The position numbers and the translations under genes were made by a program. 64,000 nt of DNA, taken from assembly GCF_022399565.1 (NCBI RefSeq), contig NZ_JAJTUT010000001.1, positions 857,336 to 921,335 of the forward strand, in the 5' to 3' direction. The notes under the pieces were generated by a model. That model did not search any database. It was not told where the DNA came from and worked only from the letters and a program-made list of their open reading frames with translations. Each line of letters opens with the position of its first letter. The stretch's first letter is position 1. This DNA is from Flavobacterium algicola (lineage in GTDB: Bacteria > Bacteroidota > Bacteroidia > Flavobacteriales > Flavobacteriaceae). Positions 50,229-64,000 of the stretch are shown in pieces.

Positions 50229-50252
50229 CCTATCTTGTTTTTTTTTATGATG

Positions 50253-50260
50253 CAAAACTA
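50253..50260 (-). promoter_or_regulatory. Promoter -7 box for the phytase operon
   Basis: TAGTTTTG on the minus strand matches TAnnTTTG, 25 bases upstream of the TonB receptor ATG. Confidence 0.6.
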
Positions 50261-50400
50261 GTGGGACTGCATTACCCTACCTTTTCATAAAAATTAAGTT
50301 TAAGTTATGATAAGCTAAATAATAAGTAAGTATGGTAACGATTAGATAACCTATAAGCGACTATAAATTCAAAAATTCTTTACTATGACATACTATTTAT

Positions 50401-51459
50401 TTACATTAAAAAAAGATCCAAGGAGAAAACGTCTAAAAGATCACAATAAAGAAATGCATATTTTAGACTTAAATGGTTTTTTCGAAAACTAACTGGCGTA
50501 AAACCATAGAATAATTTAAAAGCTGATGAAAAATGAGAGACGTCCTTGTAACCACATTTTTCTGCGACCTCACCAACATTTAAAGTCTTATTTCTAAACA
50601 GATTTTTGGCATATTCCATGCGCAGTTTGGTAATATATCCTTTGACTGTAGTTTGAAAACAAGCCTTAAAACCTTTTTTAAGTTTGAATTCATTAAGCGC
50701 AATTATTCTCGAAAGCTCCGGCAATGTAGGTGCATTAGTAAAATTATTTTCTAAAATTAACTTGGCTTCATGGAGTTTATCGTAATCGTCTGAATCTACA
50801 ATTAGTTTCTCATCAATTGTGTTTAACAACGATTCAATTTGCAAAACCACAAGTTCCTTTACTTTTGTTTCGATATACATTTTCTTCATCGCACCCTCGT
50901 ACTTACAATTTTTAATTTCATGTATAACCCATTGAATGGCTGGGTTAAATGGAAGGTAATTGGGACTTAACGTGGTATTTATTTTTCGAAGGATATCCTT
51001 TGAAAACTTTGGATGGAGATTCCAATTTTTGTTAATCAATTCGGCATAATATTCGGCAGATAAGATGATAGTAAAATATTTTATTTGTTCGAAAGCTGGA
51101 ACATCATACTGACCGCTAAAATCAACCGCATAAATAATATTTTGCGTATTTTCTACCTCATACATTTCGCCTTCAAAATTTTCAATAGCGCATTTCACAT
51201 TGTTGCAGCAGATGAAATTTAGCAACACAGACTCCCCTGTTACATTGAAATCAATTGTTTTCGGATATTCAAAAAACAATTCGATATCCAACAGCACTAG
51301 ATTTCTAGAAACTAAACTTGAAGTTATCAGGTATTCATCTTCGACCTCATCGCTACAAACATTTTCTTCCAAAAAAGAATTGTTTGTTATATTTTGATTT
51401 TCTGTTGTAATCTCAAAAATTGGTTTCTGAGTTGTTCTAATTTTAGAAGTAATTTTCAC
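50401..51459 (-). CDS. AraC-family (PchR-like) regulator
   Basis: A 352-aa regulator starting at GTG. The N-terminal domain has no recognised ligand motif. The C-terminal AraC domain spans about 235-330, with LNEFKLKKGFKACFQTTVKGY and VAEKCGYKDVSHFSSAFKLFYG. Regulators of this type often control iron or siderophore genes. It is divergent from a TonB receptor/DUF4374-like pair, and two 21-bp-spaced direct repeats lie between them. It is also upstream of the phytase operon on the same strand. An extra hydrophobic tail of about 24 residues follows the last helix. Confidence 0.87.
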   Translation of the reverse strand: MKITSKIRTTQKPIFEITTENQNITNNSFLEENVCSDEVEDEYLITSSLVSRNLVLLDIELFFEYPKTIDFNVTGESVLLNFICCNNVKCAIENFEGEMYEVENTQNIIYAVDFSGQYDVPAFEQIKYFTIILSAEYYAELINKNWNLHPKFSKDILRKINTTLSPNYLPFNPAIQWVIHEIKNCKYEGAMKKMYIETKVKELVVLQIESLLNTIDEKLIVDSDDYDKLHEAKLILENNFTNAPTLPELSRIIALNEFKLKKGFKACFQTTVKGYITKLRMEYAKNLFRNKTLNVGEVAEKCGYKDVSHFSSAFKLFYGFTPVSFRKNHLSLKYAFLYCDLLDVFSLDLFLM

Positions 51460-51460
51460 T

Positions 51461-51498
51461 ATAATAATCCGCTTTTACAAAATAATAATCCGTTTTTC
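51461..51498. promoter_or_regulatory. Tandem direct repeats, candidate AraC operator
   Basis: ATAATAATCCG occurs at 51461-51471 and again at 51482-51492, each followed by C/T and TTTT. Their 21-bp spacing is two helical turns, as for AraC half-sites. The second copy abuts the expected -33 position of the TACTTTTG promoter at 51525. Confidence 0.65.
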
Positions 51499-51524
51499 CC
51501 CACTTTTATTTTCGAAGTACCCTG

Positions 51525-51532
51525 TACTTTTG
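51525..51532 (+). promoter_or_regulatory. Promoter -7 box of the TonB receptor/DUF4374 operon
   Basis: TACTTTTG matches TAnnTTTG, 59 bases upstream of the receptor ATG. Confidence 0.65.
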
Positions 51533-51590
51533 CAACAAAACTATTTATAATAAGTCTTAATAAAAATTAATTTATTTTAAAAATTAGTAT

Positions 51591-54065
51591 ATGACTAAGA
51601 AATATATCTGCTATATCGCCTTGCTCTTAGTCACATTTTCTATTTATTCACAAGAAAACAAAGCTAGTATCTACGGAAAAGTGACAACTGAGAATAGCGC
51701 TTTAAAAGGAGTTAATGTAATTGTAGAAGGAACATCAATCACCACAAAAACAAAATCGAATGGTGAATTTACAATTGCTATTCCCTCAGGAAACTATAGA
51801 ATTACTTTTCAACATCCGGAGTTTATTACTCAAACAAAAACTATTGAATTAAAGCCTAACAGCTCTAGAAAAATACATATAAAATTAAAATCGACTCAGC
51901 TTGTAGATCCAAAGATCGATGTAGATATAGAAGCATTAAATGATGTAAAAATTCAAGGGAAGTCAAAAAAAAAGAAAATTGAAACGACTGGTTTTGCTGT
52001 AAATGTGATTGAAACAAAAGAAGCTTCTTTGCGCAATTTAACAACAAATGAATTACTAGATCGGTCTGTAGGCGTTCGCGTGAGGCAAAATGGCGGAATA
52101 GGATCGAATGTGGAATACAATCTTAACGGAATGTCTGGGAGTACCATTGGACTTTTCTTAGATGGTATCGAACTCTCTACTTACGGGCAATCTTTCAATC
52201 TAAATAACATTCCGCTTGCTATGATTGAGCGAATTGAAGTATACAAAGGGGTCTTGCCTTCACACTTAACTGGTGATTATGTAGGTGGTGCTATTAATGT
52301 GGTTTTAAAAAAGGATGTATCTCAAAATAGTGCTTCGGCTGCGGTATCTTATGGTTCTTTTAATACGGTTCAAGCTGATCTAAGTGTTACACTACGCGAT
52401 AAAAAATCAGGATTATCATTTAGAGGTTCTGGGTTTTATACCTACTCTGATAATAATTTTGAAACTTGGGGTAGATCAACAACCTATGTCAATCACCTGC
52501 AACAAATTATAAGACCGTACAGAGCAAAAAGATTTAACAATACATACAAATCAATTGGAACTCGTCTCGAAGCTGGTTTTACTAATACCAAATGGGCCGA
52601 TCAATTTTTCATAGGCTACAACGGATCAAGCAACTACAATGAAATCCCCCACGGAATAACAATGTCGGTTCCTTATGTGGGTCGATATAATGAAACTGAA
52701 GCTCATGTGTTCTTTCTAAATTATACTAAAAAAGATTTTTTAGCCAAAGGGTTAGCGCTTTCAGTCAATGCCGTACGCAGCAATCGCAGTACATACTTGC
52801 AAGACACCATTGGGTACGCCTACAATTGGGATGGCAATGTGCGAGAAGTTATTGAGTTTGGCGAAAGGGTCCCTCTGAAAACAACGGGCGGACAACAAGG
52901 TCCAAAAACCATCACAAATACCGATAGAAAAATTACAAATGCTCGCTCCAACTTAGGGTACCTCATTGCAAACGGACATCGACTATCCTTAAACCATAAA
53001 TACGAGGCTACTGATAGAACCGATTTTGATTTACTAATTCCTGCTTACAATGACTTGGCCACAAAAGGAACACTAGTAAAAAATATTCTTTCTATGAATT
53101 ATGAAGCACAAACATTCGATAAAAAATTAAGAACAAACATACTGGGCAAGTACACCACAAATAGTTCCAACCAAACCAGATCAGAAATAGTTAGTACTAA
53201 TGGTGTCAACTCAATAGTTAAAAAAGATACGCTTACCTATAACTCAAATTTTGGTTATGGAGCAACACTGTCTTATAATGTGAAGCCCAAGCTTTTTATC
53301 ATTGCCTCTACTGAGAACTCTTATATCATGCCGAGCGAATCTCAATTGTTTGGAGCACCTGAGATTAATATTCTACCAAATCTTGAACTAGAACCCGAGA
53401 AAAACATCAATTATAATTTGGGTTTTCGCTGGGGCGCATTAGACATTGGTAATCACAAAGTATCCTTGTATGCTAATGCATTTTGGCGCAATGGATACAA
53501 GAAAATCACACAGCAAGTTGTAGATGTATCGCAAATTCAAGAAGAGTCAGATGCCGACATACAAACGACAAAATATGTCAATCTTGGTCAAACACAAGCT
53601 CGAGGTTTTGAAGCTGAAATCACGTACAGTTACAATAGCAGACTGAATGCTTCACTTAACTTTTCGAAATTCAACAATGTCTTTAAACAAGAATTGGACG
53701 AAAGTGGCGCCTCGCATTCCTTTTATGGTCAGCAAGTTCCTAACGAACCTTTTCTTAGTGCGAATGCTAATTTCCAATATCGTTTTAATGACGTTTTTCA
53801 GAAAAAGTCCATTGTTAACGCCTATTATAACGTTGGCTACGTAGGAGAGTATTACATCGTATGGGGACAGCCCGATTGGTCCTTAACCCCCAGTCAACTT
53901 ACGCATGATCTAGGTGTTAATTACCGCTTCCCTTCTGGAAAACTAGTGGCAAGTCTAGATATAAAAAATGTCACCAATGCCGAGATCTACGACAATTTTG
54001 CCATACAAAAACCTGGTAGAGGTATCTACTTTAAATTGAATTACACATTTACTAAATTTTTATAA
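51591..54065 (+). CDS. TonB-dependent receptor, siderophore-type (XusA-like)
   Basis: An 824-aa outer-membrane receptor. The signal peptide ends at YSQ (residue 21). A carboxypeptidase-regulatory-like domain lies at about 24-105, and the plug at about 125-240 with TNELLDRSVGVRVRQNGGIG and IERIEVYKGVLPSHL. The barrel follows and the protein ends in YTFTKFL. Its 18-bp spacing to a DUF4374-like lipoprotein gene and the divergent PchR-like regulator resemble the xenosiderophore uptake (Xus) arrangement of Bacteroides. The substrate is inferred, not shown. Confidence 0.9.
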   Translation: MTKKYICYIALLLVTFSIYSQENKASIYGKVTTENSALKGVNVIVEGTSITTKTKSNGEFTIAIPSGNYRITFQHPEFITQTKTIELKPNSSRKIHIKLKSTQLVDPKIDVDIEALNDVKIQGKSKKKKIETTGFAVNVIETKEASLRNLTTNELLDRSVGVRVRQNGGIGSNVEYNLNGMSGSTIGLFLDGIELSTYGQSFNLNNIPLAMIERIEVYKGVLPSHLTGDYVGGAINVVLKKDVSQNSASAAVSYGSFNTVQADLSVTLRDKKSGLSFRGSGFYTYSDNNFETWGRSTTYVNHLQQIIRPYRAKRFNNTYKSIGTRLEAGFTNTKWADQFFIGYNGSSNYNEIPHGITMSVPYVGRYNETEAHVFFLNYTKKDFLAKGLALSVNAVRSNRSTYLQDTIGYAYNWDGNVREVIEFGERVPLKTTGGQQGPKTITNTDRKITNARSNLGYLIANGHRLSLNHKYEATDRTDFDLLIPAYNDLATKGTLVKNILSMNYEAQTFDKKLRTNILGKYTTNSSNQTRSEIVSTNGVNSIVKKDTLTYNSNFGYGATLSYNVKPKLFIIASTENSYIMPSESQLFGAPEINILPNLELEPEKNINYNLGFRWGALDIGNHKVSLYANAFWRNGYKKITQQVVDVSQIQEESDADIQTTKYVNLGQTQARGFEAEITYSYNSRLNASLNFSKFNNVFKQELDESGASHSFYGQQVPNEPFLSANANFQYRFNDVFQKKSIVNAYYNVGYVGEYYIVWGQPDWSLTPSQLTHDLGVNYRFPSGKLVASLDIKNVTNAEIYDNFAIQKPGRGIYFKLNYTFTKFL

Positions 54066-54083
54066 TCACAATTAATTATTATC

Positions 54084-55469
54084 ATGAAAAAAAATCTATT
54101 TAAAATAGCATTATTGAGTACAGCTGTCATGGCTTTAACTTTAGGAGGTTGTAGTAATGACAGCGATAGCGAAACAACTGAGCCGCCAGTAGAAAGCGAT
54201 ATGCGATGGATAAGCTTAACAGGATCTTTTCCTGACGCAAACGGAACTGCAGGTAATGGAGGAACGAGAGCTTATGCTATTACAGAAGAAAATGCTGCCA
54301 ATCCAGATTACGAAGTAGATCTTTTTAAATTAAATGGAGCAGAATATGTTCAAGGTTTTGCTTTAAAGTCAAGTCGTACAGCGCGTGTACAGGCATCTGC
54401 AGATGGGAAATTCTTATATAACATTCAGTACACAGGAACAGAAGGTGGTGTGTTTAATAAATACAGTGTTTCTGGAGCAGGACAGTATGAAGAAGTAGGT
54501 TTTGAATTGAACACGGCTACTATTTTGGGTACTGCTCCTCGTTGGGTAAAAGCAGCCGAGGGTATTGGTGTAGGTGTATACTATGGTGAAGCGCTACCTG
54601 CGTTTACAGGAACAGCTCCAAATTATGTGTACCAAAACCCAAAGGGAACTATTAAAATTGCGAATATTGACTTAAACAATACCGCTATAACAAACACTGG
54701 AACAATCAATGTAGATCTAGGTGAATATGAAGCACAAGGATATTACATTTCGAGAGCAGATGTACCTGTTCTAAACCAAGCAAAAACCAAATTATATATT
54801 GGTGTCAATGTTAATCGACATAATGTAAACGGAACGGTAACAACAAATGCTACTACTGGTGTGATTTCTGGTTGGGAGACTACAGATGAACGAAACATTG
54901 GTACTGTTACCTATGTGGTAGATTACCCATCTTTACGTAATGCAAAAATCATTATTTCTGAGAAAAGTAAAATAAACAACCACGGTTACCGCACAATGAC
55001 GCAACATCTTGGTACTGATGGAAATATTTATCAAGCGACTGCAACCTCAGGACCAGACATTTTGCGTATCAGCAAAACAACAGACGAATACGATCAAAAT
55101 TATCACTTTAATCTAGACACTGCCTTGGGTATGACAGGAACAAGTATAAAAGCGTGGCGTTATATTTCGAATGGTTTAGGAGTAGTTTTATATACAACAT
55201 CAGGAAGTTCTGGTGGCTATATTGCCTTGGTAAATCTAAATGATTTAACCGCTACCAAACTAGCAACAGATATCGAATCAGATGCAGCATTGTCAACTAC
55301 ATTAGGACAGTTTCAAAACATTGGAGCTATTGGAAACAAAGTATACATCCCACTGACTCCAGCAGGAAAAGATGGAAACATATACATTATAGATGTAACC
55401 ACAAAGCAAATTACAAAAGGTGCTAAATTGAAAGCAGCCTCTGGAAGTTTCTACTTAGGTGCTTACTAA
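54084..55469 (+). CDS. DUF4374-like surface lipoprotein (XusB-like)
   Basis: A 461-aa SPII lipoprotein with lipobox LGGC (Cys23), followed by SNDSDSETTE, an acidic run typical of surface-exported lipoproteins. The body is a repetitive beta structure compatible with a beta-propeller, with segments such as GTRAYAITEENA, RYISNGLGVVLYTTSG and KVYIPLTPAGKDG. It resembles DUF4374 proteins, whose Bacteroides member XusB binds siderophores. It is co-transcribed with the TonB receptor. The family assignment is by general pattern and should be checked by profile search. Confidence 0.75.
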   Translation: MKKNLFKIALLSTAVMALTLGGCSNDSDSETTEPPVESDMRWISLTGSFPDANGTAGNGGTRAYAITEENAANPDYEVDLFKLNGAEYVQGFALKSSRTARVQASADGKFLYNIQYTGTEGGVFNKYSVSGAGQYEEVGFELNTATILGTAPRWVKAAEGIGVGVYYGEALPAFTGTAPNYVYQNPKGTIKIANIDLNNTAITNTGTINVDLGEYEAQGYYISRADVPVLNQAKTKLYIGVNVNRHNVNGTVTTNATTGVISGWETTDERNIGTVTYVVDYPSLRNAKIIISEKSKINNHGYRTMTQHLGTDGNIYQATATSGPDILRISKTTDEYDQNYHFNLDTALGMTGTSIKAWRYISNGLGVVLYTTSGSSGGYIALVNLNDLTATKLATDIESDAALSTTLGQFQNIGAIGNKVYIPLTPAGKDGNIYIIDVTTKQITKGAKLKAASGSFYLGAY

Positions 55470-55553: not shown

Positions 55554-56264
55554 TTACATATAACTCATAATTTCTTTTTTTAATGTATCATATTCACCTT
55601 GCAGAATTAATCCATTATCCAATAACTTTTTAAAATTTTGCAATTTTTCGAATAGTTCTTCAGAAGACAAATCTTTCATAGATTTTTCTTGAGTTGTTTT
55701 TTCTGCTGGAATACTTTGATATTCTGTAGGAGATACAGAAACAATTTCGGCAAAATGAGTTACCTCTTCAGTTTCCATCTCTTCTATTTCTTCTGCCTCT
55801 TCTACTGCACTTTCCGCAACCTTTTCATTAATAGGCGGTGGTAAAACAGCTTCGTTAGTTTGCGAAACAATTTTTAAATTATCCATTTGCTCTTTTGCAA
55901 AAGTATATAATTTACGAGCTTGAGTTTTCGGAATATAATCTATAGAAATAGTAAGATCTGTTTTGGTCGAAAATGAAAATTCTGATCCTAATAAATTTTC
56001 TTTCACAAATGCACCTGCAACATCTTCCCAGTCATAATCTACAAAGTCCATTGACAATCCTAGATTTTTTGGCTTGCATAAAATAATACGCTTGTTGGTC
56101 AATACAATACTATCAGGGAAAACGGTTAAAGCTGGCTTTTTCTGAACGCCTATATAACCTACCTCTTCATTTTTCATTAATAAATCCTGCAACTTCGAAG
56201 TGATTTTCTCAATCGCTTTCGGATCTTGATCTTCATTCAAGAATTTTTTAATTTGTTCTTTCAT
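55554..56264 (-). CDS. Bacterial PH-like domain protein with SHOCT tail
   Basis: A 236-aa cytoplasmic protein. A PH-like domain (about 40-135) has FPDSIVLTNKRIILCKPK and DFVDYDWEDVAGAFVKE. A Glu-rich linker follows. The SHOCT helix pair comes at the C-terminus (about 198-236; ELFEKLQNFKKLLDNGLI, then GEYDTLKKEIM). SHOCT domains often anchor or oligomerise proteins. The function is unknown. It is 52 bp downstream of the REC-glycosyltransferase gene on the same strand. Confidence 0.8.
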   Translation of the reverse strand: MKEQIKKFLNEDQDPKAIEKITSKLQDLLMKNEEVGYIGVQKKPALTVFPDSIVLTNKRIILCKPKNLGLSMDFVDYDWEDVAGAFVKENLLGSEFSFSTKTDLTISIDYIPKTQARKLYTFAKEQMDNLKIVSQTNEAVLPPPINEKVAESAVEEAEEIEEMETEEVTHFAEIVSVSPTEYQSIPAEKTTQEKSMKDLSSEELFEKLQNFKKLLDNGLILQGEYDTLKKEIMSYM

Positions 56265-56316
56265 AATTAATTGAGACTAATTAGCCTTTGTTTATTTTTA
56301 GACAAAAGTAATTTTT

Positions 56317-57486
56317 TTATCTATATGAAATCGCTATTTGACCAATTTGGAATACAATTTTTAACGAATCCTTAAATGAAAGTTTAGACCCATCTGCATG
56401 AATCCATCTTTTTAAAGGTTGTTCACAAACCAACTTTTTGGTCTCTTCGTCGCCATAGATTTTTTTCATTCGCATAAAAATCTCTACATCAAATAACCAT
56501 TTGGTCAAAAACTTGGTTTGAAATGTTTTTTCAATGACATCTTTACTCATGATTTTTGCACCACATTGAGTATCATTAAAATCCATTCCGATGGTTTTTC
56601 TAATAATAAAATTAATCATTTTACTAATGATAGCACGAGCAGATTCTTTGGTGATGTCTGCTCCCATACGAGCCATACGTGAACCGCTTACAATTTTGAA
56701 TTGAGAACCAGAAATGGTACTTACCAAATCGTGAAAATCAGCAAAATCAGTAGATAGATCGGCATCTAAAAAACCGATGTAATCAAATTGTTCTTGCTTT
56801 GCCAAATGCAATGTTCCTAATCGAACAGCTTCTGCTTTACCACCATTTCTTTCGCAATCATAGATACTAATATGATCCTCGTTACCAAGTCGTAATTTCT
56901 CTAATACTTCTAGTGTTTTATCTGTACTACCATCATTTACAAAACATAAATGGTATCCGAGATTTGAAGCTACAAATGCATGAAACTCATCACTGAGCAG
57001 TCTTGTCTCTTCATTGTAACAAGGTATAACAACACCGATACAGTTATTTTGAATAATTTGATTTTTCTTAGTATTGGTAGGCAAAGTATCACCTACACCA
57101 ATAAGTCTTTTCACTCTCGCACCAATTTCGCTCAGACTTAAAGGCTTTTTCATATAATCATCAACACCAATATCAAAACCTTTTACAATTGTTTCTTCAT
57201 CTGTGTTTCCCGATAAGATCATAACGGGAGTGGTATGCCCCTTTGTTATTTTGATATGCTTTGCCAATGCAAGTCCGTTGTTTTCATTTGTACTCGATCC
57301 TGCTTCTGACTCTTGAGAAAAAGGCATGTTAATATCGGCAATAACTAAGTTGGGCTCGTCTAAATCATACTTTTGAATCCCCTCCGAAACATCTTTGGCA
57401 GTTACCACTTGATAACCTAAATCCAAAAGGCACTTCTCTAAAGATAAGACAACAAGTTCTTGATCATCGACAATTAATATTTTCAT
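56317..57486 (-). CDS. Response-regulator receiver fused to GT2 glycosyltransferase
   Basis: A 389-aa fusion protein. Residues 1-130 are a complete receiver domain: acidic pair Asp7-Asp8, phospho-acceptor Asp51 in NLVIADINMPF, Ser in ILSGN, and Lys in DYMKKPLS. A loop insertion of about 15 residues follows Asp51. From about 148 comes a GT2 catalytic domain: GVVIPCYNEETRLL, FVNDGSTDKTLEV, metal-binding FLDADLSTD, and DTQCGAKIM, resembling dolichyl-phosphate glucosyl/mannosyltransferases. This implies a lipid-linked sugar transfer switched by phosphorylation. No kinase is adjacent. It is divergent from the glycan operon at 57648. Confidence 0.92.
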   Translation of the reverse strand: MKILIVDDQELVVLSLEKCLLDLGYQVVTAKDVSEGIQKYDLDEPNLVIADINMPFSQESEAGSSTNENNGLALAKHIKITKGHTTPVMILSGNTDEETIVKGFDIGVDDYMKKPLSLSEIGARVKRLIGVGDTLPTNTKKNQIIQNNCIGVVIPCYNEETRLLSDEFHAFVASNLGYHLCFVNDGSTDKTLEVLEKLRLGNEDHISIYDCERNGGKAEAVRLGTLHLAKQEQFDYIGFLDADLSTDFADFHDLVSTISGSQFKIVSGSRMARMGADITKESARAIISKMINFIIRKTIGMDFNDTQCGAKIMSKDVIEKTFQTKFLTKWLFDVEIFMRMKKIYGDEETKKLVCEQPLKRWIHADGSKLSFKDSLKIVFQIGQIAISYR

Positions 57487-57647
57487 AAGTTAAAATTTTC
57501 GTAAATTTGGGAAAAGTAAATATATTAATAATCTTACCCATAAACAATTATTTTGAATCAAATTCGTATTTAAATATAATTTTTTTCTTAATTTACTGTC
57601 AATACTTTTATGCTTACTTTTACCCATAGTCAAACCCCAAATATTTA

Positions 57648-60600
57648 GTGAAAGAAAAAACAAATAAATACTTAATTGTTGCGCTGCTTATTGGAGTCGT
57701 CTTTCACTCAAGTGCTATTTTCTTTACCTTAGAGAGTACATACGATGCGCTTATACACATGTTTTTTGCACAGCATTATGCAACAAGCTGGTTTGAACCG
57801 TGGAACTACAGTTGGTATACCGGATTTACAGTTATGGGCTACCCTCCTCTAGTGCATCAAAGCATAGGCCTACTCTCACTCATAGGAGGTTTGAAATTTG
57901 GAATGTTTTCTGTGGCCATTATTGGTATTGTCTTATTTATAACGGGGGTTTATCGATACACTTTGATGATTACTGGAGATCGGAATGTTGCAGGCTATGC
58001 CGCTATTGTATCTGTATTCTCTTCCTCATTTGTAGAAACGCTACATATCTTTGGTCAATTGCCTAGTATTATTGGAGTGTCTATATTAATGCACTGCATG
58101 CCTGAGATTTACCTATGGATAAAAAGTGGACGAATCAAATACCTTTTTCGATCATTGTCCTTACTAGCCGTAACCATCACCTCACATCATGTGACCCCTA
58201 TTTTTGGAATGATATTTTTTATTTTTCCATTAATCGGAATGGTTGTTATGGATGTTTCAAGGGAGCAAGTAGACTCTTATAAAGACATTAAGTTTAAATT
58301 GTTTTTGAGTACTTTTTTTAAATTATTCAAAAGAATTATAAGTTTTGGTGCTGCTTCGCTGTTCTTAATTATCTTTTGTATTTTTCCTTATTGGGTAAAT
58401 TCAAAAGCAAATCCCATCACTCAAGTACCTATCCCACACGGCAGTAGGGACAATTTTATTGAAATCACCTCTTCTGGATTAATGTTTTTTGTAATTCCGT
58501 GGGGAATTTTATTTTTCATCTTGCCCTACATCCTTTACCGTTATTACAGTAAAAGGTACATTTGTTTCGGACTATCCATTTCCTTATTAATAGTTCTAGG
58601 AACAGGAGGTACTACCCCTATTCCTTTGAAAGTATTGGGTGAGACCGCTTTTAATATTTTGACCCTTGACCGTTTTACGCTTTGGGCATCCATTATGAGC
58701 TTACCTATGTTTGGTGAATTTGTTTATCGCTTAATCGAGGGCGATTTAAAAGTCGCTATTCAGCAGCGTTTTGGAAACGTATACCATCGTATTCTAGGAG
58801 CTTGCTTTGCAGCCACTTTTCTGTTTTTTGCAGGTTTTACCATTACGCTGGGTTACTTTAGACCTTTTCAACCTCAAAAAATAAATACCTTACCTCTCGT
58901 AAACTTTTTAAATCAGGACCAGCACGACCAATGGCGCTATTTACCGCTAGGTTTTGGAGATCAAATGGCTACCCTATCTTCACAGACCAATGCCAAAACG
59001 GTTGATGGAAATTACCACTCAGCCCGACGATTACCTGAATTGACTACTCGCGCTATTGAACGACTAGAAAATTCGAAATTTAGAGGAATGGAAGGTATTG
59101 GCTCCTTGCAACAGTTTTTGACTGTTCCTGAAAAGTACAATTTAAAATATGTTTTTTCGAATGATAAATTCTACGATCCCATACTCTATTTTTGTGGATG
59201 GCACCGACTATCATTACTCGAAAACGGAATCATGGTTTGGGAAAAGTTAAATGTGGCCCCTTTGCCTAAAGTACTCCCGAAAGATGAAGTGCCCTTGTAT
59301 CTCAAATTAATGTGGGGAATCATACCTATTCTTACTGTTATAATTGCTTTTATTATTAATATTCAAAGTATATTTTACAAAGCATTAAAGATAAAAGCCG
59401 AAGTAAAACCAGACTTTTTTAAGTTTGTTGTACCCTATAAAAACTTCCCATTTAAGGTAATTGTTGTTTTACATCTTTGGATTGTACTCTTATTAGGTGT
59501 TATCGGTTATGCGATGTATGATTTTTATATGTATAATGCTACTCAAATTAGTGCTACGAATGTAGTTAAATCCTATTATGATGCACTAGATTATAAGTAT
59601 TATGAAAAGGCTCACGCTTTTATAGATCCCAATAGCAAATTATCTATCTCGCAATTCATGCTCGAAACTTCTGTTGCTGATGGAATTTTAAATTCGTATG
59701 CAAAATTAGATGCTATTGATATTCAGGTCATAAAAAGTTCAGATGAGAGAGCCACTCTTATTGCCAAAACCAAATGGATTACACCATTGGAAATCATCAA
59801 CAAGGACTATTATCATGAAGCAATAAAGCGTAAAGGAAAATGGTATATTTTACCTCAAAAACAACCATTAGATATTCCGCCAGATCAATTTTTATTCGAT
59901 AATACCACTTCATATTACAAGCAAGGTAGACGAAAAATAACGACCCAACAAACCTATCATGAGGATGTATTAAAACAACCAGAACTTGAAATTTTGTCGG
60001 CCAAACTTATTCAATACAAAAATGAATTTATCATAATAGGAGAATTACAAAATATTGATAATTTCCCTGCCGATGTGGTTTTGAAATCTACTTTATACAA
60101 CCATCATGATAAGGTACTGGCCACATTTAATGCTAAAGATGTTATTAAGCACAAAATCATGCCGAAAGAAACGACGAGTTTCAAAGTGAATTTTGAAGAA
60201 ATTTCATGGCTTAAAAAAGATGTTGCTCAGCCAACAACTTTCAATCCCAACGAATTCACACCCAAGAACATAAGTGAAACACCTGCTAACTTTGATATTC
60301 AATCAGCAGGAAATGTAGCTATTACTGATTTTTACACGCAGGTGGCCTTGTCTGATTTGGTCATTGAAAGAAATCATTTAAAAGGAACTTTGTTTAATTA
60401 TGGTATTCAAGAGGTGACCGTTCCAGAGTTATTAATCTCTTATTACACTGCCGAAAAAGAATTACTGTATGTAGACAATTACTTTTTGAGAGAAGGAGTT
60501 CGTGTGCAACGCAAGCAATATTTTGACTATGAATTGCTAGATTTGTCTAGTTGCCGCATTATCTTGTCATCATTGGAGAATTGTTATGTAAACGGTTTGC

Positions 60601-60737
60601 CCAATGGCGATCTTGCTAGAACAATAATACCAAAAAGAAATAAAGAAGTTGAAAAAGAACTGCTTCAAAAAGTAAAAGGTAAAGGCTTTAGTTATATTAA
60701 AATAGAAATGAATAATTATATTGGTAATCCTAAATGA
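57648..60737 (+). CDS. Large polytopic membrane protein of the glycan cluster
   Basis: A 1029-aa inner-membrane protein starting at GTG. About ten transmembrane helices fill residues 8-390 and two more lie near 545-565 and 590-612. The first half resembles PMT/YfhO-like lipid-linked sugar transferases or PTPS-related membrane proteins, with conserved-looking TLESTYDALIHMFFAQHY near the N-terminus. The extracytoplasmic C-terminal 420 residues contain an NTF2-like segment (VVKSYYDALDYKYYEKAHAF) and an FxLYD-like beta domain (IIGELQNIDNFPADVV). The exact family is uncertain. It is the first of three overlapping genes. Confidence 0.7.
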   Translation: MKEKTNKYLIVALLIGVVFHSSAIFFTLESTYDALIHMFFAQHYATSWFEPWNYSWYTGFTVMGYPPLVHQSIGLLSLIGGLKFGMFSVAIIGIVLFITGVYRYTLMITGDRNVAGYAAIVSVFSSSFVETLHIFGQLPSIIGVSILMHCMPEIYLWIKSGRIKYLFRSLSLLAVTITSHHVTPIFGMIFFIFPLIGMVVMDVSREQVDSYKDIKFKLFLSTFFKLFKRIISFGAASLFLIIFCIFPYWVNSKANPITQVPIPHGSRDNFIEITSSGLMFFVIPWGILFFILPYILYRYYSKRYICFGLSISLLIVLGTGGTTPIPLKVLGETAFNILTLDRFTLWASIMSLPMFGEFVYRLIEGDLKVAIQQRFGNVYHRILGACFAATFLFFAGFTITLGYFRPFQPQKINTLPLVNFLNQDQHDQWRYLPLGFGDQMATLSSQTNAKTVDGNYHSARRLPELTTRAIERLENSKFRGMEGIGSLQQFLTVPEKYNLKYVFSNDKFYDPILYFCGWHRLSLLENGIMVWEKLNVAPLPKVLPKDEVPLYLKLMWGIIPILTVIIAFIINIQSIFYKALKIKAEVKPDFFKFVVPYKNFPFKVIVVLHLWIVLLLGVIGYAMYDFYMYNATQISATNVVKSYYDALDYKYYEKAHAFIDPNSKLSISQFMLETSVADGILNSYAKLDAIDIQVIKSSDERATLIAKTKWITPLEIINKDYYHEAIKRKGKWYILPQKQPLDIPPDQFLFDNTTSYYKQGRRKITTQQTYHEDVLKQPELEILSAKLIQYKNEFIIIGELQNIDNFPADVVLKSTLYNHHDKVLATFNAKDVIKHKIMPKETTSFKVNFEEISWLKKDVAQPTTFNPNEFTPKNISETPANFDIQSAGNVAITDFYTQVALSDLVIERNHLKGTLFNYGIQEVTVPELLISYYTAEKELLYVDNYFLREGVRVQRKQYFDYELLDLSSCRIILSSLENCYVNGLPNGDLARTIIPKRNKEVEKELLQKVKGKGFSYIKIEMNNYIGNPK

Positions 60738-61969
60738 TAAAAAAAGCATTATATAGCGTACTACCCGTTTTGTTCCTATTCCTATTTGTTTTTGCAGCTT
60801 CAAAAATAGATGATGAAAGAACCTCTTTTCGATTACAAACTACTCAAGATAGTTTTGTAGCCGGTAAACCTATTGCCTTAACATTTTCAACTCCTTCTCT
60901 ATCGGCTAATCCTCAACTCTTCTTAATTCACACTTATGGAAAAACAGTGTTGAATACTGAAAACAACAATGGCAAACTTGTTTATAAAATACCTGCTATT
61001 TACAGATCCAAAACAGGAGTTGTTTCTTGGTATTTAATCCAAAATCAAGAAAAGATAATGTCCGGTAATTTCAAAATTGTACCCAATGATGCCACACCAA
61101 CGATCTTAGAAAACTATTTGGGACCACCCAGTTTATTAACTGGAACCGAACATTTTACTATGATGGTTGCTATTCCAACTGATAGTTATGATAATCCTAA
61201 ACAAGATAACACTACCGTTGTTATTAAAGATCAATTTTTAGAAGACATCACAACAACCGAAAGAAAGACCGACTATTTTATTGCTTGGAAAAACATTTAC
61301 TCTAGAACTAAGTCCGGTAAAATGTTGATTTCGACAGCATGTAACGCTACTGATTCAAAGGAATTTGAAACAGAAATTCAGCCATCACCAGGAGAAGATT
61401 TTAAAATTAGTTTCAGTCGCCCGCACAAATTTGCCGATGGAAATCAGATTACAACATTGGAGACTTCTACGATTCTGGATAAATATGGCAATATTGTGGG
61501 AGATGGAACATTGGTTACTTTTCAAGTTACAACACAAAATAATATTTTGCTCAAAACCTATGCAGCTACGATAAATGGAATTGCAATAGGACAACTGCTA
61601 CATCCAGATCATAAGGATACCTATACCGTGAAAGGATATGTTACGGGAATTGCTGAGAGTAAACCAGTTCGAATAGATTACAATCCGCTAATTGATCATT
61701 TTACCTATAAGTTCACAGAAAAAAACAGGCAAATAACAGTTGGTCCATTACGAAGTTTTATGAAACAAATCGTTCCTGATGGAATTAAAGTAGAGTTAAA
61801 AATACTTTATAAAAAGGAACTGATTGAAACAAAAATTATCGAAACACAAAAAGGAATTGCTACGTTTTATTTGTTACCTCCTTTTTATAAAAAATCAGAA
61901 TATCAATTTGAAATCACCACATTAGGAGTGACTCAAAAAACCGAAATAAAGAAATATGAAACTAATTAA
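60734..61969 (+). CDS. Exported protein of unknown family
   Basis: A 411-aa protein with one N-terminal membrane segment or uncleaved signal (about 5-22). The rest is beta-rich and looks like tandem Ig-like or Fn3-like domains (SFVAGKPIALTFSTPSLS, TVVIKDQFLEDITTTE, GDGTLVTFQVTT). I recognise no catalytic motif. Its start overlaps the 57648 gene by 4 bp (ATGA), and its end overlaps the glycosidase gene by 14 bp. It is therefore translationally coupled and probably works in the same periplasmic or surface complex. Confidence 0.75.
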   Translation: MIKKALYSVLPVLFLFLFVFAASKIDDERTSFRLQTTQDSFVAGKPIALTFSTPSLSANPQLFLIHTYGKTVLNTENNNGKLVYKIPAIYRSKTGVVSWYLIQNQEKIMSGNFKIVPNDATPTILENYLGPPSLLTGTEHFTMMVAIPTDSYDNPKQDNTTVVIKDQFLEDITTTERKTDYFIAWKNIYSRTKSGKMLISTACNATDSKEFETEIQPSPGEDFKISFSRPHKFADGNQITTLETSTILDKYGNIVGDGTLVTFQVTTQNNILLKTYAATINGIAIGQLLHPDHKDTYTVKGYVTGIAESKPVRIDYNPLIDHFTYKFTEKNRQITVGPLRSFMKQIVPDGIKVELKILYKKELIETKIIETQKGIATFYLLPPFYKKSEYQFEITTLGVTQKTEIKKYETN

Positions 61970-63509
61970 TAACCGTAATATTTTTAAAGCTGCTTTCATA
62001 CTTTCCTTTATTGTGATAAGTGTCTTTACCATGCTGGGTTTGGCTAGAATCTTGGATTACCTCAACACTGGTGCCGATAGAACATCGATGCTCCATCTCG
62101 AAACAGAAAGTGAGGATGTCTATTTGCCACATGTCAATTGGACAAGCTTAGAGAATCCGGCTCGTGAGATGGAGAAAAACACTTTGGGCAAGCTAGAGCG
62201 AGATTATCTCTTTTCGTGGTATGTAAAAAATACAGCCTTAAAAACAAACAATTCAGAAGGAATAGATGACTATTATACTGCGAATACCCGTTTGAACTTG
62301 TATCGTACCATAAAGTACAATAGAGAACATCAAATCACGATTGAAAACACGACAATCAAACACTCCCCTGATCTTGAATTCTACAGTGAAGATGGTCAAT
62401 TGGTCGTATTTACAGATAAAAATGTGATCGAATATCAAAAAGTGTATCAGAATAAAGAGTTGATAACCACCGTTCAAGATACAGCAACTTATAAAGTAAT
62501 GATGCTTCTAGAAGATGGTTTCTGGCGTGTGCGACATTTTCTTAAAATGCAACCCGAAGTTTTTGTAGCTGACACCACAAAGACAAATCAAATTTATACG
62601 GTCAAAGGCAACCAAATATTCCAGAATAAAGTACCCTACACCATCAAAGGAATTAATTACTACCCTAAAAATTCCGCATGGGATACCTTTGGCGAATTAT
62701 TCAACAAAGACACAATTGCAGCCGATTTTGAGATTATCAAAAAAGCAAAACTGAACACTATTCGAATTTTTATTCAGTACGGTGATTTTGGAAAAGCCAA
62801 GATTATCCCTGAGAAAATGAAGAAACTGAAAACCTTTTTGGATTTGGCAGAAGCCAAAGATTTAGCTGTAGTTGTTACCCTTTTTGATTTCTATAGTGAT
62901 TACTCTCTGGATAATTGGACTTTAACGCATCGACACGCTGAGCAAATTGTGTCTACCTTCAAAGACCACAAAGCAATTCTTGCCTGGGATATGAAAAACG
63001 AACCCAATTTAGATTTCGAAAATAGAGGAAAAGAAAATGTACTAAGTTGGCTAGACCACATGGAAACTGTCATTAAGGAAAATGACCCCAATCATTTAGT
63101 TACTATAGGTTGGTCCAACTCGGTTGAGGCAACGAACTTGGCTTACAAAATGGATTTTATATCATATCACTTTTATAATGACATAATTCATCTTGAATAC
63201 GAAACGAATCAATTATTGAAGAGCACTAAAAAACCAGTAGTAATTCAGGAATTTGGAGTGCCATCTTATGGCGGAATGTGGAATTTTTGGGAAGGAAGTA
63301 TTGAGAAACAAGCAACTTATCATCAAAAAATGCAAGCTTATTTCAAAAAAAACAATTACTCTTTTATGTCATGGACTTTATATGATTTTCCACATGTGCC
63401 AGATCAAGTTGCTGGTAAATGGCCTTGGCAAAAAAACAGGCAAACAAAATTCGGGTTTATCGATGATAAAGGAGTCAACAAACCCGCATTTAAGTATATT
63501 TCGAACTAA
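61956..63509 (+). CDS. Membrane-anchored GH5-like glycoside hydrolase
   Basis: A 517-aa protein. An N-terminal transmembrane anchor lies at about 10-32. An NTF2-like extracytoplasmic segment spans about 80-200 (SWYVKNTALK, ATYKVMMLLEDGFWRVRHF). A TIM-barrel glycosidase (about 220-510) follows, with the probable acid/base Glu349 in WDMKNEPN and nucleophile Glu432 in VIQEFGVPSYGG, the GH5 pattern. The substrate is not evident. It may trim or release the glycan made by its neighbours, as the cellulase in cellulose-synthase operons does. It overlaps the upstream gene by 14 bp. Confidence 0.88.
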   Translation: MKLINNRNIFKAAFILSFIVISVFTMLGLARILDYLNTGADRTSMLHLETESEDVYLPHVNWTSLENPAREMEKNTLGKLERDYLFSWYVKNTALKTNNSEGIDDYYTANTRLNLYRTIKYNREHQITIENTTIKHSPDLEFYSEDGQLVVFTDKNVIEYQKVYQNKELITTVQDTATYKVMMLLEDGFWRVRHFLKMQPEVFVADTTKTNQIYTVKGNQIFQNKVPYTIKGINYYPKNSAWDTFGELFNKDTIAADFEIIKKAKLNTIRIFIQYGDFGKAKIIPEKMKKLKTFLDLAEAKDLAVVVTLFDFYSDYSLDNWTLTHRHAEQIVSTFKDHKAILAWDMKNEPNLDFENRGKENVLSWLDHMETVIKENDPNHLVTIGWSNSVEATNLAYKMDFISYHFYNDIIHLEYETNQLLKSTKKPVVIQEFGVPSYGGMWNFWEGSIEKQATYHQKMQAYFKKNNYSFMSWTLYDFPHVPDQVAGKWPWQKNRQTKFGFIDDKGVNKPAFKYISN

Positions 63510-63513
63510 AAAA

Positions 63514-64000
63514 TTATTTTTTTGATTGTATAATTTCCTTAAACGTATCCATATACATATCTGTAATTTTATCCATGGATAAAGCACTTGCTGCTTTAAA
63601 ATTCTGTATTGCGATCGATTTTCTATTGTCGTCGTTATTAATGATTTTTTCTATGGCCTGCGCCAATGATTCTGCGCTTTCTGGGTCAAAGAATTCCCCT
63701 TTGTAACCTTCTTCTTCTACCAATAAAGCAAGATCGCCAAGATCAGGCATGACTACTGCTTTACCATAACTTCCTGCTTGATGCAATACACCTGAACTAC
63801 CTGTTGTAGATGTGTACGGGAAAGCAACTACGGTACTCTCTCCAAAAATTACTGGAACATCTTTTTCCTCTACATAACCTGTAAAACGGATTCCCTCAAC
63901 GTCTTTATATTTTTCTTGAACACCTGCAAGATATCCAGGTGTATTTGGACTGTCTGTTCCTGCGATGACAACTTCAATTTTCTCTGTACTGCGTTGTCTT
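63514..64000 (-). CDS. GT4-type glycosyltransferase, partial (N-terminus beyond the window)
   Basis: The frame is open to the right edge, so only the C-terminal 161 residues are seen. It has IEVVIAGTDSPNTPGY, RFTGYVEEKDVPVIF, VAFPYTSTTGSSGVLHQAGS and GEFFDPESAESLAQAI. These are the nucleotide-sugar-binding C-terminal Rossmann features of GT4 enzymes (the GT1-family clan). It converges with the GH5-like gene, 4 bp apart, and probably belongs to the same glycan pathway. An internal ATG at 63786 is not the start. Confidence 0.88.
   Translation of the reverse strand, partial: RQRSTEKIEVVIAGTDSPNTPGYLAGVQEKYKDVEGIRFTGYVEEKDVPVIFGESTVVAFPYTSTTGSSGVLHQAGSYGKAVVMPDLGDLALLVEEEGYKGEFFDPESAESLAQAIEKIINNDDNRKSIAIQNFKAASALSMDKITDMYMDTFKEIIQSKK

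Follow-up and report, generated by a model that had tools for sequence, protein, structure and literature searches.

Six genes at the end of the 64,000-nucleotide stretch of Flavobacterium algicola DNA analysed here (the window) raise the question of whether they form a glycan assembly system with a phospho-signal input, as a preliminary description made from the letters alone had proposed, and what signal such a system would receive. All six genes were located, and Pfam supports the receiver, GT2, PH, glycosidase and GT4 calls; the + strand genes overlap, as described, by 4 and 14 bp. The cluster does not end at base 64000, as had been supposed, and a flippase, an outer-membrane exporter and a sensory cassette sit past the window edge. 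The features are as follows.

55554..56264, - strand: PH-domain protein, accessory (bPH_3, E 2.6e-20)
56317..57486, - strand: REC-GT2 fusion, receiver (REC) at ~1-125 and GT2 at ~150-389 (Response_reg 1.2e-18, Glycos_transf_2 2.1e-20)
57487..57647, no strand: divergent promoter region (motif scan)
57648..60737, + strand: 1029-aa integral membrane protein, proposed GT-C type (AlphaFold2 model)
60734..61969, + strand: exported beta-rich protein with about four Ig-like domains and an N-terminal anchor (AlphaFold2 model)
61956..63509, + strand: membrane-anchored clan GH-A (GH5/GH2-like) glycosidase (Glyco_hydro_2_C 1.3e-10)
63514..64000, - strand: GT4, cut by the window end; the whole gene, G000:C1:920849-922027, encodes 392 aa (Glyco_trans_1_4 1.3e-18)
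G000:C1:922131-923396, - strand, beyond the window: MOP flippase (PF13440 in relatives)
G000:C1:923761-925878, + strand, beyond the window: TPR-beta-barrel, outer-membrane exporter (PgaA/TPR similarity below cut-off)
G000:C1:926660-927364, - strand, beyond the window: LytTR (LytTR 1.1e-19)
G000:C1:927377-927697, - strand, beyond the window: Hpt (Pfam Hpt 21.7 bits, under cut-off)
G000:C1:927681-928718, - strand, beyond the window: kinase
G000:C1:928718-929851, - strand, beyond the window: FIST/NosP (FIST 2.8e-40)
G000:C1:929924-932221, - strand, beyond the window: HNOBA-PAS kinase (HNOBA 4.1e-20)
G000:C1:932226-932768, - strand, beyond the window: H-NOX (HNOB 4.3e-47)
G000:C1:932776-933189, - strand, beyond the window: stand-alone REC

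The cluster is genuine and conserved, and it extends further than previously described. Its gene order is kept in nine same-genus genomes, and its genes recur around 80 loci with a relative of the 1029-aa protein (GT2 at 78 of the 80, receiver-fused in most; Ig-domain protein at 80; glycosidase at 77; GT4 at 76; MOP flippase at 72; TPR-beta-barrel at 68), so that the clustering is above chance and the homologues are indeed neighbours elsewhere. These counts leave aside hits below 40% query coverage (the exporter excepted), weaker overlapping hits, and all TonB-receptor and AraC hits. The PH protein, previously counted among the six genes, is accessory, being present at just 14 of the 80 loci (13 from named Flavobacterium and one from a Flavobacteriaceae MAG); its PH part stands, and the SHOCT part ascribed to it has no match at E ≤ 1.

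No known capsule or cellulose operon was matched. For the eight cluster proteins, every listed NCBIfam match, those to Pga and Bcs models among them, stays below its curated cut-off (for REC-GT2, among the best 25 of 97); Pfam gave no Pel, Wzy or capsule-specific family; and neither collection revealed a priming transferase or a protein of Wzy/Wza type. Pel, PNAG and cellulose systems have a cytosolic glycosyltransferase, a TPR-beta-barrel exporter and a periplasmic hydrolase, to which Pel adds a GT4 and a MOP-type protein, and all of these have counterparts in the cluster; a GT-C protein, an Ig chain and REC control are, to our knowledge, foreign to those systems. Pel was rejected: at E ≤ 0.1, neither the GT4 protein nor the MOP protein with 24 relatives matched PelF (DUF3492) or PelG, presumably the defining Pel Pfam families. 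PNAG (Pga) was rejected with PgaC at 49.4 of 422.3 bits and PgaA at 42 of 366.65 bits, both below the equivalog cut-off, and cellulose (Bcs) with BcsC at 18.1 of 858 bits. An ordinary Wzx/Wzy system would account for the MOP flippase (recognised via relatives), but no Wzy, Wzc or Wza was found among the eight cluster proteins. A link to structural colour was also set aside, the available portions of PMC12521978 and PMC12758843 dealing with other genes.

The suggested phospho-signal input is borne out by a receiver on GT2 that appears phospho-competent: the acid pair, phospho-Asp, Ser/Thr and Lys are all present, and D7, D8, D51, S92, K114 and P115 are kept in all 72 REC-bearing rows. The rows without REC (14 of 86, from 11 loci) are all from Aquimarina. 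No membrane segment is predicted in REC-GT2 by hydropathy, and at E ≤ 0.01 the GT2 part matches seven PDB sequences, three of ArnC, three of sll0501, which we take to be GtrB, and one of dolichol-P-mannose synthase. REC-GT2 is proposed to be a phospho-regulated polyprenyl-phosphate-sugar synthase.

The 1029-aa protein, earlier called sugar-transferase-like, is proposed to be a glycosyltransferase of GT-C type from an AlphaFold2 model of middling confidence (mean pLDDT 66.5; residues 403-547 poor). Residues ~1-450 of the model resemble STT3, AglB and PglB (Z 12.6-18.9), ArnT (14.3) and AftA (13.9), with rmsd 4.1-5.7 over 301-350 residues. By sequence, its profile matched no PDB chain at E ≤ 1, and 37 relatives gave weak Pfam matches to PTPS_related (4 of 37) and MecA_N (2 of 37); the catalytic Asp of GT-C enzymes is expected in the first loop, and D33 is invariant in the 37 aligned rows. 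The model also has a beta-rich C-terminal domain and, at 634-737, an NTF2-like domain (Z about 12 to PBP5/NTF2-like structures, rmsd 2.5-3.2). Of the two NTF2-like segments originally reported, this is the one that stood; the N-terminal part of the glycosidase aligned with it by hhalign at a probability of 0.2%, as did three controls (0.1-0.4%), and whole profiles behaved likewise.

Among the other cluster proteins, the Ig-chain protein (pLDDT 87.6, pTM 0.52) has its best structural matches, at Z 14.7 (rmsd 11.1) and 13.6 (rmsd 7.0), in adhesin and FdeC Ig repeats. The glycosidase profile matches GH5, GH2 and GH158 structures, and E349 (NEP) and E432 (EFG) are invariant in 27 sequences. The MOP assignment comes from PF13440 matches in 14 of 25 relatives, the F. 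algicola protein being outside those 14, and a sequence-level comparison of the MOP profile with the PDB gave nothing at E ≤ 1. The PgaA/TPR similarity of the TPR-beta-barrel is sub-threshold, at the 42 bits given above. Membership of the GT4, MOP flippase, clan GH-A glycosidase and TPR-beta-barrel in glycan assembly is supported by their being kept together family-wide, and their conservation with REC-GT2 and the GT-C protein upholds the proposed glycan-assembly reading, with a presumably extracellular product. The cluster is probably part of a conserved flavobacterial machine for an extracellular sugar polymer.

The most informative part, missed at first, lies just outside the window: a cassette that encodes REC, H-NOX, FIST/NosP, Hpt and LytTR proteins together with two kinases. 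The H-NOX protein scores 160.5 bits for HNOB (cut-off 25.5); the H-NOX signature consists of a proximal heme His and a YxSxR motif, and His104, Tyr133 and Ser135 are conserved in the only 5 aligned rows. The FIST/NosP protein, with FIST (138.7 bits) and FIST_C (123.1 bits) both above cut-off, is a putative heme/NO binder. Hpt falls under its Pfam cut-off (21.7 against 24.6 bits), with His56 kept at at least 90% in 60 rows.

In 299 genomes of the family, H-NOX is present in 68 of 75 with the 1029-aa gene versus 37 of 224 without it (odds ratio 49, kinship ignored); rhodopsin, used as a control, showed no such association (odds ratio 0.6, p 0.16). Five of the 80 were excluded, their 1029-aa match being fragmentary or weak (E 2.5e-104 to 3e-4), and two of these, G828 and G630, were tallied among the 37. 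Where both genes share a contig, 57 of 58 pairs are within 32 kb, on one side. Fifty named cluster-bearing genomes, picked from the 80 for contig size and spread, have H-NOX in 49; in 44 it lies on the contig of the cluster, no more than 30 kb away and always on one side, and in six it is not within that distance. FIST is found in 47, within 30 kb in 38. A sample of relatives has H-NOX above cut-off in 8 of 10 cluster genomes versus 10 of 110 others. H-NOX genomes without the cluster have FIST in only 15 of 35, and a second kinase also in only 15 of 35.

In these cluster-less H-NOX genomes, the near side of the cassette holds another exporter or polysaccharide locus in 14 of 35 and an exported-protein locus in 4 of 35 (18 of 35 in all); such a locus is on the far side in 1 of 19, and 11 of the 35 near-side stretches, one of 1.6 kb, have no recognised matrix locus. 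Near sides were read in 35 of 37 genomes, two of 64 and 80% completeness being omitted in expectation of short contigs, with two further stretches proving to be 1.6 and 3.7 kb long; far sides were read in 19 of the first 20. Hits below 35% coverage and weak kinase hits were dropped from these counts and from those of FIST and the second kinase. In three genomes (L137, L142 and L146) the REC-GT2 gene or a lone REC is still beside the cassette with the rest of the cluster gone. Ten Wzx/Wzy loci adjoin the cassette, and their sugar transferase is receiver-fused in five and has an N-terminal part that is not a Pfam receiver in the other five, three of each five having been tested: among six type B transferases, Pfam found Response_reg in L128, L129 and L133 and none in L139, L140 and L144. 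This six-protein result weakens the receiver-fusion point for Wzx/Wzy sugar transferases. It leaves our estimate of a broader reading unchanged, since the fusion is present in the first subgroup: Flavobacteriaceae may possess a plug-in island whose single NO cassette (REC, H-NOX, kinase, Hpt and LytTR, often with NosP and a second kinase) serves interchangeable matrix factories, the relay ending, in the main form, directly on GT2, while a second form has a receiver-like domain fused to the initiating sugar transferase of a Wzx/Wzy locus. We give this slightly less than an even chance.

An AlgR-box-like repeat with a 21-bp period occurs at cluster, alternative-locus and cassette promoters. LytTR-type tandem repeats are frequent in the REC-GT2/GT-C divergent region of relatives; in F. 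algicola itself this region (57487..57647) has no site at the threshold of 15 bits, which was chosen after 12-bit results were known (4 of 64 training sites score below 12 bits). Outside the training stretches, 63 of 63 hits are intergenic, and the motif lies 56-106 bp before the cassette-opening REC ORF in 13 of 19 far sides; no gene start was called within 400 bp of 12 of the 45 near-side hits, and unrelated genes follow some hits. A genome-wide pattern count in F. algicola gave 5 matches (4 distinct sites) versus 6 for a reversed control, thus no overall excess. Of the four distinct sites, three fall within 10 kb, at the flippase, exporter and cassette; since the pattern was fitted to those three, which a matrix derived from other genomes had located, only their clustering is informative, and weakly. 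The tandem repeats are candidate sites for binding by the LytTR regulator.

The reading that we consider reasonably likely is extracellular polysaccharide assembly under an NO phosphorelay, controlled through both transcription and phosphorylation of a glycosyltransferase. By family, H-NOX and FIST/NosP would bind NO and alter the two histidine kinases, from which phosphoryl groups would pass via the stand-alone REC to Hpt and its conserved His56. Hpt would then serve LytTR, predicted to act at the tandem repeat observed before cluster operons and cassette, and the receiver on GT2, whose phospho-site is conserved; with two such outputs, control would be both transcriptional and direct on the enzyme. 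The closest structures suggest that GT2 would load sugar onto polyprenyl phosphate. Fold, family and co-conservation point to a lipid-linked glycan made by GT4 and flipped by the MOP protein, to which, on the outer face, the GT-C protein would add polyprenyl-phosphate-borne sugar or which it would polymerise, with the Ig-domain protein as scaffold, trimming by the glycosidase and export through the TPR-beta-barrel. The NO relay probably switches this machine on or off, the enzyme being tagged directly and the promoters acted upon.

The cassette might instead reach the cluster by LytTR transcription only, the REC on GT2 serving another kinase. LytTR-type repeats ahead of operons would suit this, as would Aquimarina, where H-NOX lies within 30 kb of the cluster, with its REC-less GT2, in 4 of 6 genomes tested, and the five cassette-side Wzx/Wzy transferases with a non-receiver N-terminal part. 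The five receiver-fused ones, the intact REC in all REC-bearing rows, the Hpt-like protein within the cassette, and its retention of REC-GT2 or a lone REC at L137, L142 and L146 make it fairly unlikely. That cassette and cluster are unrelated, their adjacency being frozen gene order, is highly improbable: Flavobacteriaceae do share common ancestry and our statistics ignore phylogeny, but presence is patchy and correlated (68 of 75 versus 37 of 224), rhodopsin is unlinked, different loci hold the same spot, and one promoter motif joins the cassette to the clusters.

A different product under the same NO relay was also weighed, namely protein glycosylation, with the GT-C protein as an oligosaccharyltransferase placing a MOP-flipped glycan onto envelope proteins. 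STT3, AglB and PglB are its best structural neighbours, and GT4 and flippase could provide the lipid-linked donor. The GT-C fold, however, is shared by ArnT and AftA (Z about 14), which use polyprenyl-phosphate sugars; the GT-C protein is accompanied by a dedicated GT2 resembling polyprenyl-phosphate-sugar synthases, by a glycosidase and by the TPR-beta-barrel, whose PgaA similarity is sub-threshold; and polysaccharide loci elsewhere occupy the cluster's place beside the cassette. We regard protein glycosylation as quite unlikely.

Compared with systems described in the portions of the literature available, the proposed regulation is most readily set beside the syp polysaccharide of Vibrio fischeri, under HnoX-HahK-SypF(Hpt)-SypG/SypE control (PMC12369376, PMC8738867), with which it shares H-NOX acting on a kinase, an Hpt hub and transcriptional plus post-transcriptional polysaccharide outputs; as described there, syp has no receiver-fused glycosyltransferase, uses SypG as transcription factor and has no FIST protein, the comparison covering the regulation. 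In the accessible text on the H-NOX and NosP pathways of Shewanella, Vibrio and Legionella, the sensor families are the same, kinases adjoin H-NOX, and some H-NOX genes are already reported to have a FIST gene nearby, whereas the outputs named are c-di-GMP enzymes, quorum sensing and gene expression rather than a receiver on a glycan enzyme (PMC8738867). A receiver-glycosyltransferase fusion also exists as the REC-BcsA-like protein of Methanobacteriaceae, which is archaeal and of PF13641 type, the consulted part of that source mentioning no glycan cluster or NO cassette (PMC5847659). Pseudomonas AlgR/AlgZ likewise involves a LytTR regulator of a polysaccharide; the 9-bp core is CCGTTCGTC for AlgR and CCATTCGTC in the stronger half-site here, and, from what was available of that source, AlgR sites are not necessarily direct repeats 12 bp apart, unlike the tandem repeats of 21-bp period (PMC4064291). 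An open-library search for H-NOX and Flavobacteriaceae found no paper, the available parts of PMC8776716 and PMC4227749 held nothing decisive, and titles and abstract openings among the matches listed described no system of this kind.

With a receiver on a lipid-linked-sugar enzyme, NO would have a shorter route than the c-di-GMP, quorum-sensing or gene-expression outputs through which it acts on biofilm in the available account of other H-NOX pathways (PMC8738867); with the relay ending on that glycosyltransferase, NO could set matrix output fast, without c-di-GMP. Such a route, if true, would account for how aquatic bacteria of a large group might couple matrix production to NO. The analysis offers a family-wide candidate function for unannotated genes (GT-C protein, Ig chain and flippase) and predicts a LytTR regulon, for which it defines a candidate site.

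The genes that the preliminary description had grouped as a glycan assembly cluster with a phospho-signal input (window 55554-64000) are present at the positions reported: a PH protein, a receiver-glycosyltransferase fusion (REC-GT2), a 1029-aa membrane protein, an Ig-domain protein, a glycosidase and a GT4 enzyme, six in all. Their claimed domains were recovered except SHOCT, which was not, and the overlapping + strand genes are three, with overlaps of 4 and 14 bp. The cluster does not end at 64000; the window end falls within the GT4 gene, and in the genome, where the window spans contig positions 857336-921335, the cluster runs on and is followed on the - strand by a putative nitric oxide (NO)-sensing cassette.

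Genes beyond the window end, in order, from reading of the genome
GT4 enzyme (remainder of gene)
MOP-flippase-type membrane protein
705-aa TPR protein (exporter)
LytTR response regulator (- strand)
small Hpt-like protein (- strand)
histidine kinase (- strand)
FIST/FIST_C protein (- strand)
HNOBA-PAS histidine kinase (- strand)
HNOB (H-NOX) protein (- strand)
single REC (- strand)

The Pfam family Polysacc_synt_3 was matched in 14 of 25 relatives of the MOP-type protein, and the present genome's own copy has no Pfam match. The exporter combines TPR with a beta-barrel (the barrel by reading), and its similarity to PgaA is sub-threshold. Adjoining the cluster, at window 47418-55469, a pair of TonB-dependent receptors surrounds an AraC regulator and a lipoprotein-like protein of 461 aa that no Pfam family matches; these four genes have matches in only 1, 3, 3 and 1 of 80 cluster loci, and are probably an uptake locus unrelated to the cluster.

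At E<=0.01 the GT2 part of the fusion matched seven PDB sequences, and every one of them is a polyprenyl-phosphate-sugar synthase (ArnC, sll0501, which we take to be GtrB, or dolichol-P-mannose synthase). NCBIfam matches to ArnC, PgaC, PgfS, PpgS and others were every one far under cut-off, and membrane segment prediction gave none for the GT2. The receiver is present in 72 of 86 aligned GT2 rows, with D7, D8, D51, S92, K114 and P115 invariant throughout; it is absent from the remaining 14, which come from 11 Aquimarina loci. The cluster is mostly kept in these (L076, L081, L082, L083, L089, L097, L098, L100, L102, L105 and L121).

A model of the 1029-aa protein built from 37 sequences (pLDDT 66.5) predicts a GT-C fold in the first 450 residues, like that of STT3, AglB, PglB, ArnT and AftA, and an NTF2-like fold at residues 634-737; its best Z was 18.9, versus the 14 that the tool quotes as usual when a mostly helical model has no clear match. 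PTPS_related matched weakly in 4 of 37 relatives. The Ig-domain protein is predicted to contain about four Ig-like domains, in a model that is good per residue (pLDDT 87.6, pTM 0.52). The glycosidase belongs to clan GH-A, and both presumed catalytic glutamates, which we assigned from the NEP/EFG pattern, are invariant in 27 rows.

The same block is present in 9 other genomes of the genus, of which 7 have the PH gene and 7 have FIST-kinase-Hpt-LytTR genes in flanking DNA. A scan of the genome collection with the 1029-aa protein gave at least 541 confirmed relatives, of which 80 were kept for neighbourhood counts, all Flavobacteriaceae, judged by genus name. The neighbourhood proved conserved, with partner genes recurring within 10 kb of the 1029-aa gene in most loci: the Ig-domain protein in 80, GT2 (with or without REC) in 78, the glycosidase in 77, GT4 in 76, the flippase in 72 and the exporter in 68, several absences being contig ends. 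The PH protein is this close in 14 of 80. In a phylum-wide sample, 12 of 395 genomes match, one of the 12 outside the family. At L024, L017, L085, L106 and L112 GT4, flippase or REC-GT2 is present twice, the extra copy lying in or beside the cluster, and genome G024 has a second REC-GT2 about 22 kb from its only H-NOX match, on the same contig.

The cluster and H-NOX tend to occur together. Among 50 named cluster-bearing genomes, 49 have H-NOX, 44 of them within 30 kb on the same contig, where it lies downstream without exception at a distance of 8.2-26.5 kb (median 17.1 kb), and 47 have FIST, near in 38. In 299 genomes spread evenly over the family, an intact 1029-aa gene is present in 75 and H-NOX in 105 (both, 68; 1029-aa gene only, 7; H-NOX only, 37; neither, 187), giving an odds ratio of 49 (uncorrected p 8e-32). 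Pairs on a single contig are at most 32 kb apart and on the same side in 57 of 58, with one 2.3 Mb apart; ten pairs are split over different contigs. A control family, bacterial rhodopsin, was found in 13 of the 75 genomes with the gene versus 58 of the 224 without (odds ratio 0.6, p 0.16). Among 120 relatives, H-NOX exceeded the cut-off in 8 of 10 cluster genomes versus 10 of 110 others.

The flank of H-NOX where the cluster otherwise sits (the near side) was read in 35 of the 37 genomes with H-NOX and no intact 1029-aa gene. The cassette partly persists there (HNOBA kinase match in 30, Hpt in 29, LytTR in 29, one of them weak, FIST in 15, second kinase in 15). Ten near sides carry a Wzx/Wzy-type locus (type B) with Wzy_C-like (10), Wzx-like (9) and Wzc-like (10) proteins and a Bac_transf sugar transferase (10), and within the stretch UDP-glucose dehydrogenase (8) and epimerase (7). 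Pfam checks covered Wzy_C, the dehydrogenase, the epimerase, six of the sugar transferases and a single Wzx (L139); the Wzc-like proteins and the L129 Wzx were assigned by size, place and similarity. Five of the ten have a sugar transferase of a type that carries a receiver-like domain as a fusion (Pfam calls Response_reg in all three tested); the domain mostly lacks the canonical acidic residues, and a stand-alone REC adjoins. In the other five the N-terminal part of the transferase is unrecognised by Pfam (0 of 3 tested). Such fusions were seen at L128, L129 and L133, and by similarity at L148, L154 and L162.

Three near sides (type C) encode UDP-glucose dehydrogenase, a TackOD1 protein and GT2 alongside an exporter pair; in a fourth (L152) the exporter pair stands alone within the stretch. 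Four others (L132, L135, L137, L141) have, after the cassette, a five-gene exported-protein locus (in L141 about 209, 263, 1025, 194 and 202 aa) whose large protein includes a SpaA-type domain and which possibly encodes a fibre; L137 keeps REC-GT2 as well. GT2, REC or 1029-aa genes or their remnants are kept at L138, L142, L146 and L151, and only weak GT2 similarity at L130 and L150. At L146 (genome G828) and L151 (G630) the cluster copies are decaying or diverged: near H-NOX there is a receiver or GT2 on its own, together with fragments of the 1029-aa gene. No matrix-type locus was recognised in 11 of the 35 near sides. On the opposite, far side such a locus was found in 1 of 19, in a genome with none on its near side, and two far sides showed weak GT2 similarity (25-27%).

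In the two divergent promoters of the cluster (71 and 55 loci), a word search brought out a motif repeated directly in tandem, with a 21-bp period and ACCATTCGTC as its best half-site. LytTR regulators are reported to recognise direct repeats spaced by 12 bp, and the 9-bp core of AlgR is CCGTTCGTC (PMC4064291). A matrix from 64 sites was run on 54 stretches of other genomes, where all 63 matches at >=15 bits are intergenic, about 80% of the DNA being coding by the rule used; at 12 bits, near sides gave 55 matches versus 2 in pair-shuffled DNA. Matches lie 56-106 bp upstream of the cassette-opening REC ORF in 13 of 19 far sides, and upstream of type B operons (L129, L133, L154), type C exporter or dehydrogenase genes (L134, L136, L152, L160) and the exported-protein operon (L132, L137, L141). 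Four type B loci (L139, L140, L144, L159) have no match at 12 bits, for 12 of 45 near-side matches no gene start is called within 400 bp, and some matches precede unrelated ORFs. The present genome has three sites: one precedes the flippase gene, another falls in the interval from exporter to LytTR, and the third is 85 bp ahead of the cassette. There is none anywhere in the 64-kb window, and thus the REC-GT2/GT-C promoter here is without motif cover.

The analysis shows the gene content and its co-conservation, the co-occurrence with H-NOX, the motif positions and the intactness of the phospho-sites, and it predicts the folds. From these data we infer NO sensing by the cassette, phosphotransfer, the sugar chemistry and export of the product, with an NO effect that may be of either sign. 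The nearest known logic is that of Vibrio fischeri, where HnoX, HahK and Hpt control the syp polysaccharide (PMC12369376, PMC8738867); in the flavobacterial cluster, by contrast, the receiver sits on a glycan enzyme. Receiver-glycosyltransferase fusions are described in Methanobacteriaceae (PMC5847659), and so the idea of the fusion is not itself new. As far as the literature was searched, no printed account was found of such a fusion at the end of an NO relay, as proposed here, with a conserved set of glycan-building genes next to it. The 11 receiver-less Aquimarina loci offer a natural test of the receiver's role.
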